From positions 3,038,001 through 3,102,000 of the forward strand of contig NZ_CP073754.1 of assembly GCF_018734325.1 (NCBI RefSeq): DNA of 64,000 nt, written 5' to 3'. Positions within the stretch are counted from its first letter, which is position 1, and every line of letters begins with the position of its first letter. The notes below the pieces were generated by a model. It was not told where the DNA came from, did no database searches, and saw nothing but the letters and a program-made list of their open reading frames with translations. This DNA comes from Methylomonas paludis. GTDB lineage: Bacteria; Pseudomonadota; Gammaproteobacteria; Methylococcales; Methylomonadaceae. Below, one piece after another: positions 2,358 to 12,658 of the stretch. A program made the translations under genes and the position numbers.

Positions 2358-4091
2358 ATGTCCGACCCTTCTGCCACTACGCCTTCTTTTAAAGATTTGG
2401 GTTTATCCGAATCACTTTTAAAAGCATTAGAAAGCGTTGGCTACGAAACCCCCTCCCCGATTCAAGCCGAAATTATTCCTTTTGTCATGGCTGGCCGCGA
2501 TGTATTGGGCCAAGCCCAAACCGGTACCGGCAAAACTGCTGCGTTTGCTCTGCCGGTTTTATCCCGGCTGGATGTGAATCAAAAAGATCCACAAGTTTTG
2601 GTTTTGGCCCCTACTCGCGAACTGGCGATTCAGGTTGCTGAAGCTTTTCAGCGTTATGCTTCCCATATCAAAGGCTTTCATGTACTGCCCATTTACGGTG
2701 GCCAGGATTACACTACCCAGTTGCGCCAGTTGAATCGCGGCGCCCATGTGATTGTCGGCACCCCTGGCCGGGTAATGGATCATATGCGCCGTGGCACCTT
2801 GAAACTGGAATTTCTGAAAACCCTGATTCTGGATGAAGCCGATGAGATGTTGCGCATGGGCTTTATCGACGATGTGGAATGGATACTCGAACAGACCCCA
2901 GCGTCACGCCAAACCGCGCTGTTCTCGGCAACCATGCCTACTGAAATCCGCAAAATTGCTCAGAAATATCTGAACAATCCGGAACAGGTTACCATTAAGG
3001 TAAAAACCGCTACCGCTGCTAATATTCGCCAACGCTACTGGTTTGTCAGCGGCATACACAAAATGGATGCGCTTACCCGGATTCTGGAAGCGGAAAATTT
3101 TGATGGCATGATTATTTTCGTTAGAACCAAAACCGCCACAATTGAGGTTGCGGAAAAGCTGGAAGCCCGCGGCTTCTCGGCTTCGGCCATCAATGGCGAT
3201 ATGTCACAGGCACTGCGAGAACGTGCCATTGAAAACCTGAAAAGCGGCAAGCTGGATATTTTAATTGCCACCGATGTTGCCGCTCGTGGTCTGGATGTGG
3301 ACAGGATTACCCATGTGGTGAACTACGATATCCCTTATGATACCGAATCCTATATTCACCGGATTGGCCGGACTGGCCGTGCCGGTAGAACGGGTGACGC
3401 CATTCTGTTTGTTTCGCCACGGGAAAAACGTTTGCTGGCCAATATTGAACAGGCAACCAAACAAAAAGTTGAAGAAATGCAATTACCTTCAACAGAGTTC
3501 ATCAATAACACCCGTATCACCCGGTTTAAACAGCGCATTACCGACACCCTGGCCGCCGAGGAATTAAGTTTTTACAGCCAGCTGATTAACCAGTATCAGG
3601 TTGAACATGACGTACCTGCCGCAGATATTGCAGCGGCACTGGCTAAATTATTACAGGGTGATACCCCGTTATTACTGAAAGAGCCCAGCAAAAAACCGCG
3701 CAAAGATGATGACAGAAAATCCGGCGATTTTGACCGGGATCGGGATCGCGGTCCAAAACGGGAAAGAGGCCGTTCTGCACAAGTGGAAATGGAGCTGTTC
3801 CGTCTGGAAGTAGGTCGTAGCGATGGCATTAAGCCCGGTAATATTGTTGGTGCTATCGCCAACGAAACCGGCATTGATGGCGATCATATTGCCAGAATTA
3901 AAATTGAAGAAAATTACAGCACAGTGGAATTGCCGGCTGGAATGCCTAAAGATCTGTTACAGGCTTTGAAAAAAGTCCGGGTCGGCGGCAAAACTTTGAA
4001 TATTTCCCGACTGGACCCTGATCTGGTCAAGAAAGCCAAGAGTAAAAAACGCGTAGGCTCACCGTCTAAACGCGGCAAAGGCCAAGAGTAA
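2358..4091 (+). CDS. deaD: DEAD-box RNA helicase, DeaD/CsdA type
   Basis: 577 residues. Order of elements: Q motif (residues about 10-36), Walker A AQTGTGKT (53-60), PTRELAIQ, D159-EAD, SATMP near 190, a second RecA domain with ARGLDVDRITHVVNYDIP and HRIGRTGRAGR, a helical dimerisation-like region, a charged linker rich in D, R and K, and a C-terminal DbpA/CsdA-type RNA-binding domain (about 470-555) ending in a basic tail. CsdA unwinds structured RNA during cold-shock ribosome assembly and mRNA turnover. It is preceded by 122 bp of non-coding DNA and followed by the long non-coding stretch to 4789, so it is probably monocistronic. Confidence 0.92.
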   Translation: MSDPSATTPSFKDLGLSESLLKALESVGYETPSPIQAEIIPFVMAGRDVLGQAQTGTGKTAAFALPVLSRLDVNQKDPQVLVLAPTRELAIQVAEAFQRYASHIKGFHVLPIYGGQDYTTQLRQLNRGAHVIVGTPGRVMDHMRRGTLKLEFLKTLILDEADEMLRMGFIDDVEWILEQTPASRQTALFSATMPTEIRKIAQKYLNNPEQVTIKVKTATAANIRQRYWFVSGIHKMDALTRILEAENFDGMIIFVRTKTATIEVAEKLEARGFSASAINGDMSQALRERAIENLKSGKLDILIATDVAARGLDVDRITHVVNYDIPYDTESYIHRIGRTGRAGRTGDAILFVSPREKRLLANIEQATKQKVEEMQLPSTEFINNTRITRFKQRITDTLAAEELSFYSQLINQYQVEHDVPAADIAAALAKLLQGDTPLLLKEPSKKPRKDDDRKSGDFDRDRDRGPKRERGRSAQVEMELFRLEVGRSDGIKPGNIVGAIANETGIDGDHIARIKIEENYSTVELPAGMPKDLLQALKKVRVGGKTLNISRLDPDLVKKAKSKKRVGSPSKRGKGQE

Positions 4092-4347: not shown

Positions 4348-4399
4348 AAAAAAAAGGCGTAGTGTTTACGGCAATTCCTAACCGGAAACACTACGCCTT
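4348..4399 (-). terminator. Rho-independent terminator of the candidate small RNA
   Basis: The arms at 4354-4371 and 4382-4399 pair over 18 bp with a single mismatch around a 10-nt loop. Read on the minus strand, the stem is followed at once by eight T residues (A run at 4348-4355 on the plus strand). No protein gene on the minus strand lies upstream for it to serve; the next gene to the right is on the plus strand. Confidence 0.8.
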
Positions 4400-4452
4400 G
4401 TCAACACTGACAGTTACAATGACGAGGTAAGTTCAATACACTTGAAGACCCG
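4348..4452 (-). ncRNA. Candidate sigma54-dependent small RNA
   Basis: This is the minus-strand interval between the predicted start (about 12 nt downstream of the -12 element at 4463-4478) and the last T of a strong terminator. The predicted RNA is about 105 nt. It can form a 5' hairpin TTCAA-gtgta-TTGAA, a second hairpin TGTCA-gtgt-TGACA, and the 18-bp terminator stem. The segment between the first two hairpins is predicted single-stranded and contains ACCUC, which could pair with Shine-Dalgarno sequences; that is inference. No ORF with a start codon and ribosome-binding site is seen. It matches no small RNA family I recognise. Promoter, upstream activator sites and terminator all agree in orientation and spacing. 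Confidence 0.6.
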
Positions 4453-4462
4453 AAAATATTAA

Positions 4463-4478
4463 AGCAATTTAAGTGCCA
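4463..4478 (-). promoter_or_regulatory. Sigma54 (-24/-12) promoter for the candidate small RNA
   Basis: On the minus strand the sequence reads TGGCACTTAAATTGCT, a full match to the sigma54 consensus TGGCAC-N5-TTGCW with GG and GC ten bases apart. The predicted start is near 4452. It is the best sigma54 element in the window. Confidence 0.75.
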
Positions 4479-4541
4479 TTTTATTTTAACAACTTATTCA
4501 ATAAGTTACAAAAACACCTATTTAGCTTTACGCCAGACATG

Positions 4542-4588
4542 CGCACCGTTGCATCGCAAGATAGTTACATTTGCACCAATATGGGCTA
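4542..4588. promoter_or_regulatory. Two NtrC-like sites upstream of the small RNA promoter
   Basis: Site 4572-4588 (read on the minus strand) ends in a perfect TGGTGCA half and matches about 10 of the 13 defined positions of TGCACY-N4-TGGTGCA. Site 4542-4558 matches about 9 of 13. Their centres are 30 bp apart and lie about 128 and 98 bp upstream of the predicted start, the arrangement expected for an enhancer bound by NtrC dimers on one face of the DNA. The 10-mer TTGCACCAAT at 4571-4580 recurs exactly at 58741-58750 upstream of the porin. Confidence 0.5.
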
Positions 4589-4789: not shown

Positions 4790-5635
4790 ATGATTAATTT
4801 AGGCAAATTTAATAGTTTAACTGTATGCCGAACAACAGACAGCGCAGTGTATCTGGATGGCGGCGAAGAATGCGGCGAAATTTTGTTGCTGGATAAGGAT
4901 CTGCCTACCCACTATCAAGTGGGTGATGTGCTAGAGGCTTTTGCGTTTATCGACGGCCATAATCAGGCTCTAGCCACACTTAAGGCTCCCAAAGCCCAGG
5001 TAGACGAGGTTGCCTGGTTAAAAGTTGTATCACTAAGTCACGCTGGAGCTTTTATGGACTGGGGCTTAAGCAAGGATTTGCTGGTTCCGTTTAGTGAGCA
5101 GAAAACCAAAATGATAGAAGGTCGCTCCTATCTGGTGCGCCTGTTTTTGGACGAAAGCAATCGAATTGCCGCCTCCACGCTGCTGGATGACTTTATTAAA
5201 GAGCAGGCGTTTTATTTTAAAGAAGGCCAGGCTGTTGATTTAATTATTGCCGAAGCCACCGACTTGGGATTTAAAGCAATTATTAATCATCAATACTGGG
5301 GACTTTTATACAAGAATGAGATTTTCCAAACCTTACCGTTCGGTCAGCACTTAACCGGCTATATCAAGAAAATCCGTGAAGATAATAAAATTGATCTGGC
5401 TTTGAATCAGGACAAATATGCTGAAAAAGTGGATAGTACGTCAGAGATGATTCTGCGCACCCTGCAAAAACATGGTGGCTATATTGCTTTAACCGACAAA
5501 AGCCCGCCGGAAATGATTTATGATACCTTTGGGGTAAGTAAAAAAGTGTTCAAGCAGGCTATAGGCGGTTTATATAAACAGCGTAAGATTGTTATTGAAG
5601 ACAAGGGGTTGCGCGCCACCCCACAGGATAACTAA
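4790..5635 (+). CDS. cvfB: CvfB-family S1-like RNA-binding protein
   Basis: 281 residues, as expected for the CvfB/YitL family. These proteins have three S1-type OB domains followed by a C-terminal winged helix; here the later S1-like repeats are at about 70-135 and 140-215 (GQAVDLIIAEATDLGFKAII is typical), and the winged helix is the last 60 residues (LRTLQKHGGYIALTDKSPPE). The family binds RNA and affects virulence or stress gene expression in some firmicutes; its job in proteobacteria is poorly known. The ATG at 4790 follows AATGAGACATC, a weak ribosome-binding site. It is convergent with the TetR gene. Confidence 0.8.
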   Translation: MINLGKFNSLTVCRTTDSAVYLDGGEECGEILLLDKDLPTHYQVGDVLEAFAFIDGHNQALATLKAPKAQVDEVAWLKVVSLSHAGAFMDWGLSKDLLVPFSEQKTKMIEGRSYLVRLFLDESNRIAASTLLDDFIKEQAFYFKEGQAVDLIIAEATDLGFKAIINHQYWGLLYKNEIFQTLPFGQHLTGYIKKIREDNKIDLALNQDKYAEKVDSTSEMILRTLQKHGGYIALTDKSPPEMIYDTFGVSKKVFKQAIGGLYKQRKIVIEDKGLRATPQDN

Positions 5636-9574: not shown

Positions 9575-12500
9575 ATGCTCTCCATTTTCGTTCGATTTTC
9601 CATACGTTATTCCGGCATTGTCGTGATGCTGGCTTTATTGCTGCTGGTTTACGGTGCTTATCGTTTTGCCGATGCCGGTCTGGATATTTTTCCTGAATTT
9701 GCACCTAAACAAGTGATTATTCAGACCGAAGCTCCCGGACTGGCAGCCGAACAGGTGGAGGTACTGGTAAGTCAGCAAATTGAAACGGCTATCAGCGGTT
9801 TGATCGGCCTGAAGAATTTACGTTCCCAGTCTATCCAGGGTTTATCGATAGTCACGGCTGTTTTTGCAGAAAACAGCGATATTTACCGCAATAGGCAATT
9901 GATCAGTGAACGCCTGACCGGAATCAATCAGCGTTTACCGGCCGGGGTCGCCATGCCGGTAATGATCCCTCTCTCCTCGTCCTCGGCCACAGTATTGACG
10001 ATAGGCATGAGTTCCAATAGCAAAAATCTGCTGGAATTGCGCAGTCTGGTGGACTGGACGCTGGCACCACGTTTGCTGGCTATACCGGGCGTGGCGGATG
10101 TGAATGTGTTTGGCGGTGAAATTCAGCAATTGCAGGTGCAAATCAGGCCGGATGCCTTACAGCGGTTTAATCTGGCTATCGACGAAATTGTTTCAGCAAC
10201 CGCAGCTGCGGCAGAATTGAGCGGCTCCGGTTTTATTGAAAACACCAATCAACGCTTCACCCTGCAATTAAGCGGTCAACCGGTCAATCCTGACCAGTTT
10301 CGTCAGGTATTGGTAAAACGCCATAACGGCAGCAATATTCTGTTGGGCGATGTGGCTGATGTAGCTTACGCACCTGAGCCGCCCATCGGTGCCGCGCAAA
10401 TCATGGGTAAACCCGGTATCGTGATGATGGTGATCGGCCAGTATGGCGCGAACACATTATCGGTATCCAAACAGGTGGAAACTGTGTTGACAGAGTTTGC
10501 CGCCTTGTTCGAACGCCAGAATATAGACTTTTACCCGCATCTGTTCCGCCCGGCCGATTATATTGAAACGTCGGTAGGAAATTTGTCCAGTCATTTACTG
10601 ATAGGCGGCTTTTTTGTCGTGCTGATTCTGTATGTGTTTTTATTCAATTTCCGTAGTGCTTTTATCGCGGCATTGGCGATTCCGCTATCACTGATGACGG
10701 CGGTCATCGTGTTATTGGAGCGGGGCGCCAATCTGAATATTATGGTACTGGGCGGTCTGGCCATTGCCTTGGGCGAAGTGGTGGATGATGCAATTATTGA
10801 TACCGAAAATATTTATCGGCGCTTGCGGGAAAATCAGCTGCTGGGGCAACCGGATAGTCTGGCCAGCGTTATTTATCGGGCATCCATGGAAGTGCGTGGT
10901 TCGGTGGTATACGCCAGTTTTATCGTGGCACTGGTGTTTGTGCCCTTGTTAACGCTGGATGGCGTGGCTGGCCGTTTATTTGCTCCACTGGGTTATTCAT
11001 ATATTCTGGCGATACTGATGTCTTTGCTGGTGGCATTAACCCTGACCCCGGCTTTGTGTCATTTATTATTAAGCCGTAATCTGGCCGAAGCGCTTGACCC
11101 GCCCTTGGTCAGACGCTTAAAACCGGTTTATACTCGGTTGCTGACCTGGGTGATGCGGCATTTCAAGGTAATTGCGGGTATCTGTGTGCTGCTGTGCGTA
11201 ATCGGTATTGGTGGATTTGCCAGTCTGGAACATAAGTTTTTACCGGAACTGCGGGAAGGCCATTTTATTATCCACACCGCAAGTGTACCGGGAACTTCTT
11301 TAAAGGAATCGATAAGAGTAGGCAGCCAGCTTACCGCTGCATTTATGAATATAGCCGGGGTGGAATCGGTGTCGCAATGGGCCGGACGGGCCGAACGCGG
11401 CGCAGATACTTACGGCAGTCATTACAGTGAATATGAAGTGCGTTTGCAGACTTTATCCGGAGCAGAACAGCAACGGGTATTGGATAATTTGCGCGCGATT
11501 CTGGACACTTTTCCGGGTATTAATTATGAAGCTAATACTTTTCTTACCGAGCGAGTGGACGAAACCATTTCCGGCTATACGGCGGCGGTCGTGGTTAATA
11601 TTTATGGCAATGATCTGGCAACCCTGGACAGCAAAGCTCAGGCAGTGGCCAATATTATGCGGGAAACCGACGGCGCAAATGATATTCAGGTGCGCTCACC
11701 ACCACTTACTTCCATGCTGCAGGTACAACTGGACCAGGAACAATTACGTTTTCGGGGGATTAGTCCGGCTCAGGTGATGGCGGCACTGCAAACCGCTTAT
11801 GAGGGCAAGATAGTCGGCAAAAATATTCAGGGCAACCGGATTTATAATGTGGCCGTGACCTTACCGGCAGATTTACGCAACCAAACCGAGTTTTTGCAGC
11901 TGCTGCCGTTAAAAAACGCCGATGGTGAGCGGGTGCTGCTGGGGCAAGTTGCTGACATTCGTCACAGCGAAGGCCGTTACAATATTTTGCATCAGGGCGC
12001 ACAGCGGGTACAGACGGTCAGTTGCAATATAGACGAACGTGACATGGATGATTTTATGCACGAATTAAAGCAGCGGGTATTACAAGAGGTGGACTGGCGG
12101 CAAGGCAGTTATCCGGACTTTATCGGTGCGGCACTGGAACAGGCCAAAGCCCGTGAAGCCCTGATCATCCATGCGCTGCTGGCGGGTAGCGGGGTGCTGT
12201 TATTAATTTATATTGCGTTGGGCAGTATCAGACATGTGGCTTTAACGCTGGTCAATCTGCCGTTTGCCCTGCTGGGCGGTGTGACAGCAGTACTAGCAAC
12301 TGACGGTACTTTGTCAGTGGGTTCGGTAGTGGGTTTTATCACTTTGTTTGGCATTACGGTGCGCAACTGTATCATGCTGATTTCTCACTACCGGCATCTG
12401 GTAGAGCAGGATGGCCTGCCCTGGACTCTGGACACCGCAGTGCAGGGTGCCCAGGAACGTTTGCCGTCAATTTTAATGACGGCTCTGGTCACTGCGCTGG

Positions 12501-12658
12501 CCATGCTGCCGATAGCCTTTGACAGTGACAACCCCGGCCGGGAAATCATGGGGCCAATGGCTGCCATTATTATTGGCGGGCTGGCTTCCTCGACAGCATT
12601 GAATCTGTTGTTATTACCAACGATTTTGTTGAAGTTTGGCCGTTTTGAACGCAGTTAG
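9575..12658 (+). CDS. RND-family efflux permease (CzcA/HME-like)
   Basis: 1027 residues with the RND layout: TM1 (about 12-30), a large periplasmic loop, TM2-6 (about 335-480), TM7 near 530, a second large loop, and TM8-12 (about 855-1020). The helix with [16 protein letters not shown] carries the charged residues typical of metal-type (HME) RND pumps, and [20 protein letters not shown] is the usual start of the first loop. Such pumps need a periplasmic adaptor and an outer-membrane channel; neither is adjacent. Its 3' end overlaps that of the convergent yebC-like gene by 4 bp. Substrate unknown. Confidence 0.85.

Follow-up and report, generated by a model that had tools for sequence, protein, structure and literature searches.

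A predicted sigma54-dependent small RNA gene beside cvfB in Methylomonas paludis and its probable relationship to the attenuated leaders of nirB

The window, i.e. the whole 64,000-nucleotide stretch of Methylomonas paludis DNA analyzed here, includes a gap between a DEAD-box RNA helicase gene (2358..4091, plus strand) and a cvfB-like gene coding for an S1 domain and the CvfB winged helix (4790..5635, plus strand). An initial sequence-only reading had claimed a complete nitrogen-controlled small RNA gene on the minus strand of this gene-free DNA. Such a gene is convergent to the helicase gene and divergent from cvfB, and the question is how much of that claim stands and what kind of gene it would be. 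Methane oxidation is affected by nitrogen supply, and if the claim is true, the locus represents a testable regulator present in 28 of the 37 genomes of the genus as well as a documented example of how a cis-acting attenuator leader becomes an independent small RNA gene. The genome of the window (G000) is complete and 3.67 Mb in size, and the best matches of its CvfB among the named genomes were to Methylomonas (71% identity for M. lenta).

The sigma54 consensus promoter noted earlier on the minus strand was found at 4478–4463 (feature 4463..4478, TGGCACTTAAATTGCT) as a pattern match with canonical spacing of the -24 and -12 elements, and it is kept in relatives. Judged from the -12 element, transcription would start near 4452. 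Two predicted NtrC-type half-sites lie 30 bp apart upstream on the same strand, the distal TGGTGCA at 4572..4578 (about -126 to -120) and the proximal CGGTGCG at 4542..4548 (about -96 to -90), both at positions conserved among the copies described below. The two NtrC-like sites had been placed about 98 and 128 bp upstream of the start, and these distances hold to within a few bases; in each site, however, only one of the two halves is a good match.

By themselves the motifs give weak evidence, as they are not clearly above chance within the 64-kb window. The promoter pattern TGGCAYN5TTGCW occurs twice against 0.46 expected, a number reached in 8 of 100 shuffles, and the 14 occurrences of TGGTGCA are about what chance predicts (13.9); motif counts within the window were thus rejected as deciding evidence. 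The second promoter match, at 10062–10077 on the plus strand, is situated within a gene (9575–12658) and is probably due to chance. A promoter and terminator scan gave four sigma70-like sites in comparison to 6.3 in shuffles. Since the single motifs were not significant in 64 kb, conservation was examined, and the module as a whole is significant because it is conserved in relatives.

The strong Rho-independent terminator reported about 105 nt downstream of the start was confirmed on the minus strand (4348..4398), its predicted stem extending from 4398 to 4355 and the U tract to 4348. The predicted small RNA (4348..4452, minus strand) would accordingly be about 105 nt long; its predicted fold has a free energy of -38.0 kcal/mol (z -4.75), and none of 200 shuffles was equally stable. 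The 5' hairpin UUCAA-GUGUA-UUGAA (4432..4446, minus strand) resembles hairpin P1 of the nirB leaders, and in G019 its stem reads UUCAG...CUGAA, with one pair altered on both sides in comparison to the window copy. The core GAACUUACCUCGUCAUUG (4417..4434, minus strand) is followed by a small hairpin UGUC-AGUGUU-GACA (4399..4412, minus strand), which has A at loop position 1 and G at position 4 and does not overlap the terminator stem. In agreement with the earlier description, no ORF of at least 60 aa was present in the interval on either strand, and no ATG was seen by eye in the RNA. The ACCUC described as free is for the most part base-paired according to structure prediction: in the minimum-energy structure its partner is the 5' end of the RNA, and the mean unpaired probability of ACCUCGUC was 0.33. 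No Rfam 15 family scored above its gathering threshold, the lowest sub-threshold E-value being 3.1.

A nucleotide search of 101 genomes found the best match in G019 (E 1.0e-11), and further matches in other genomes (7.1e-5 and 5.1e-4) and elsewhere in G000 (6.7e-5). The helicase–cvfB gap of G019 contains TGGCATATGTATTGC and an 18-nt core, GAACTTACCTCGTCATTG, identical to that of the window; the letters of the terminator differ between the two copies and its form is the same. G022 likewise carries the module between these two genes. In G032, where the helicase gene is about 5 kb off, a similar module adjoins cvfB; homology of its RNA body to the window copy was not demonstrated (E 0.45). The conservation of promoter and terminator in related genomes, on which the sequence-only reading had let its proposal depend, was thus found.

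In five other genomes (G014, G008, G016, G009, and G027) the leader of nirB is built in the same manner, from a sigma54 promoter, a related core and a terminator, and is divergent from the gene of a NarK-like transporter; the partial transporter scored under the NarK cut-off. The window core differs by two mismatches from those of the G014, G008, and G016 leaders. Also G000 has a nirB leader of its own and a leader before an nrtA-like gene, away from the window locus and beside a gene for a response-regulator/ANTAR protein. The names nrtA and NasT are our own labels, and the proteins so labelled match the Pfam families NMT1-like and response regulator plus ANTAR, respectively. The leaders have the hairpin GGAC-AAAGGC-GUCC or a variant of it at the terminator base. 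An AnnGGY hexaloop on a stem of at least 4 bp was present in all 54 leaders examined (32 nirB, 18 nrtA, and 4 gnd), these being the labelled set with further nirB leaders of G024 and G001 uncounted, and in none of the 30 free-standing copies.

The published ANTAR signature is a dual hairpin whose hexaloops begin with A and have G as the fourth base (PMC3369931). Only one such A1/G4 hairpin was found in 14 of 22 nirB rows, which speaks against a simple reading of the leaders as ANTAR targets, and two or three in many nrtA rows. In the leader before the nrtA-like gene of G000 (L161:4428-4558, minus strand), a sigma54-like promoter is combined with two A1/G4 hexaloop hairpins, which is what an ANTAR target should have. 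In four genomes (L255, L256, L258, and L259) a 6-phosphogluconate dehydrogenase-like gene, its family confirmed for L256, is preceded by a sigma54 leader with an AnnGGC hexaloop, which suggests that an enzyme of carbon metabolism responds to nitrate. That the nirB and nrtA leaders are under nitrate control we infer from the hairpin, the ANTAR gene nearby and the reported properties of NalA (PMC12830290). The window module appears to belong with these attenuated sigma54 leaders, a connection that the initial reading had not foreseen.

Altogether 30 free-standing sigma54 RNA genes, situated outside the nas and gnd operons, were collected from the 28 genomes. Type A is found beside cvfB (four copies) and type B beside an M18 aminopeptidase gene (five copies). 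Type C includes 15 copies, of which four face yjdM and nine a gene for an NtrC-like sigma54 response regulator, while the remaining ones are that of G035, at the locus of its near-identical relative G021, and that of G030 elsewhere. Type D has two copies and types E, F, G, and H one each. The type G copy, in G029 (L254), resembles a nirB leader in which the antiterminator hairpin is broken, and ntrB and ntrC follow about 380 nt downstream of it; with the strict promoter pattern, no copy upstream of ntrBC was found in the stretches from G000, G022, G019, and G004.

The promoter is kept across the free-standing copies. Both half-site positions were occupied in 21 of the 30 (mononucleotide shuffles: mean 0.09, maximum 1), as counted among partly related and hence non-independent copies in position windows that were set once the data had been seen. 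An alignment of 22 copies shows covariation of the terminator stem, with 87.7% of the cells paired and 34 double-sided changes in comparison to 9.8 in shuffles, for a structure drawn by us on those same 22 sequences. Classified automatically, 25 of the 30 copies have a convergent ORF as the first one downstream and five a co-directional one, at 94–382 nt, so that these five could still be leaders; the co-directional ORF in G035 is probably spurious. Full-length NtrC above the curated cut-off was present in all seven genomes checked.

The covariance search across related genomes that had been proposed was run with three models, R1 and R3 on 311 genomes of the order and R2 on the 37 of the genus, and the genome counts include leaders as well as training rows found by construction. 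R1, built from 19 nirB leaders and three type A copies, had matches in 72 of the 311 genomes at E 0.01, and it found types B, E, F, G, and H and one type C copy unseen in training (E 2.7e-11 to 0.0038); weak matches in G134, G013, G253, and G228 were left out. Free-standing copies served to train R2 and R3, with two nirB leaders added for R2. R2 had a match in each of the 37 genus genomes at E 0.5 and R3 matches in 116 of the 311 genomes at E 0.05. Excluded from the 30 copies were matches with no convincing module (G010 C71 and C234, G033 C13, G001 C147, and G020 C2), a leader with ANTAR-type hairpins (G020 C7), and also G026 C5, G004 C70, G001 C413, and about a dozen nrtA-leader-like matches. 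Outside the genus, where 39 R3 matches and some others were read, other genera of the family have modules of sigma54 promoter and terminator with a CUCC-like or pyrimidine-rich core beside similar genes (L439, L423, L426, L448, and others). The module of L439 adjoins nifE, and those outside the genus may be nitrogen-fixation small RNAs.

A profile made exclusively of nirB leader bodies found copy G (E 8.5e-14), the type A copy of G022 (1.9e-6), and copy H (3.8e-6). It did not find the window copy, the tie of which to the nirB leaders runs via G022, the shared core and the position. A profile of three type A bodies recovered, at E about 0.002, the leaders of nirB in G008, G016, and G014, against a background that includes loci picked for the core. 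In G005, nirD and the end of nirB are directly convergent to the same helicase gene. Because of the profile matches and the arrangement in G005, we think that in type A a nirB leader has stayed behind. Comparisons of the RNA bodies did not demonstrate homology of types B, C, and D with type A, and common ancestry is argued here for type A only. The core pattern with at most two mismatches had 25 matches in the 311 genomes, three of them nirB leaders, in comparison to 28, by our own count, for a reversed control.

The window segment 4452–4348 (minus strand) is thus fairly probably a free-standing small RNA gene driven by NtrC and sigma54, which probably derives from a NalA-like nirB leader that lost its nitrate-responsive antiterminator and would hence terminate in every case. 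Under nitrogen limitation, phosphorylated NtrC would bind the two upstream sites and activate the sigma54 polymerase. In the leaders of nirB, nrtA, and gnd the ANTAR-type hairpin overlaps the terminator base, and an ANTAR protein would there block termination when nitrate is present. The window RNA has no such overlapping hairpin, and every transcript should therefore stop at the terminator, giving a free RNA of about 105 nt. The leader would most likely have stayed next to the helicase gene after nirBD had disappeared or moved elsewhere. What stands of the complete nitrogen-controlled gene that had been claimed is, by sequence, a gene of the sigma54/NtrC type with conserved promoter and terminator in a group where NtrC was found in seven of seven genomes; its expression and NtrC dependence are predictions.

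The cores of the free-standing copies are pyrimidine-rich (ACCUCGUCAUUG in type A, UUCCUCCUGUCAU in type B, and UUACUCCUAYCUGUUCUC in type C), and this suggests that they pair with Shine-Dalgarno sequences. The RNA would then probably act in trans on the ribosome-binding sites of target mRNAs. The cores are only partly unpaired in the predicted folds. Target prediction, run as an antisense search with a 14-nt seed, showed no excess over the control in either G000 (16 vs 15) or G019 (16 vs 12), and the proposal that ACCUC blocks ribosome-binding sites gained nothing from these unenriched matches. Core-complementary stretches with AGGTAAG just before possible start codons were seen at L196 and L204 (G000) and L221 (G019), in numbers at chance level.

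According to a wider and more tentative reading, to which we give somewhat less than an even chance, a nitrate-attenuated leader became independent of its operon and lost the antiterminator hairpin; copies that spread to several loci would now form a family of small RNAs for nitrogen starvation across gammaproteobacterial methanotrophs, with a CU-rich core pairing with ribosome-binding sites, and the family would persist even without nirB and the ANTAR protein. G022 and G004 (each 99% complete), G019 (91%, draft), and G010 (83%) retain free-standing copies, although searches of these genomes for ANTAR (E 0.001) and nirB (E 1e-60) gave no match.

The window RNA could also be a functionless relic, i.e. 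a nirB leader that remained after the loss of nirBD and is still transcribed and terminated, although we consider this unlikely. The convergent nirD and nirB of G005, the missing nirB matches in G022 and the draft G019, and the target search without excess are all compatible with such a remnant. Against it, the alignment of G000 and G019 is restricted to 4488–4400 of the query 4600–4340, a segment with the promoter and the first half of the RNA in it; the two cores are identical, whereas the terminators differ in letters and agree in fold; and free-standing copies of the same design occur at several other loci.

EutX and Rli55 are reportedly free RNAs that sequester an ANTAR protein, and the window RNA, likewise a free RNA connected with ANTAR regulation, might in the same manner titrate a NasT-like protein with UGUC-AGUGUU-GACA. 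The 4-bp stem, the hexaloop with A1 and G4, and the response-regulator/ANTAR protein encoded in G000 fit this idea, which is nevertheless very improbable. An A1/G4 hairpin of this other type was found in one of the 30 free-standing copies, that of the window, and in none of the other 29, and it appears in about 7% of shuffled bodies; the G is lost from the G019 loop as read by eye, and the four genomes named above keep copies without a detected ANTAR protein. Furthermore, the target described in the available part of PMC3369931 is a dual hairpin, which the window RNA lacks. Least probable of all is an antisense or interference RNA against the helicase gene, convergent in G000, G019, and G022, since the terminator ends 257 nt beyond the helicase stop in the window, the gene is distant from the cvfB-side copy of G032, and the other copies face unrelated genes.

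Among the literature matches listed, there was no description of an NtrC/sigma54-controlled small RNA in methanotrophs. The transcript map of Methylosinus sporium 5 places sigma54 promoters at nif genes and at genes of nitrate transport and includes EcpR1 and alpha-r45 as small RNAs, with no sigma54 small RNA in the available part of the paper (PMC12403871). The available part of a paper on Methylomonas DH-1 mentions small RNA in its references only (PMC10355033).

The free-standing gene favoured here was compared with two Pseudomonas RNAs. NalA is the sigma54 leader RNA of nirBD (PMC12830290). It resembles the window RNA in the sigma54/NtrC-type promoter and the short terminated transcript; the nirB leaders of the genus are in the same position as NalA, and the body of the G022 copy is related to theirs. 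Unlike NalA, the window RNA has no nirB downstream on the same strand and no ANTAR-type hairpin overlapping the terminator, and a nitrate switch is therefore not expected. NrsZ requires NtrBC and RpoN under nitrogen limitation, is about 226 nt long and processed, and is encoded next to ntrC (PMC8395346). The window RNA shares with it the free-standing arrangement and the control by NtrC and sigma54, here predicted, but has a predicted length of only about 105 nt and lies (G000 3042348-3042480) far from ntrC (G000:C1:363463-364848), so that position and length rule out its being NrsZ itself. The closest known system is thus NrsZ in use and NalA in descent.
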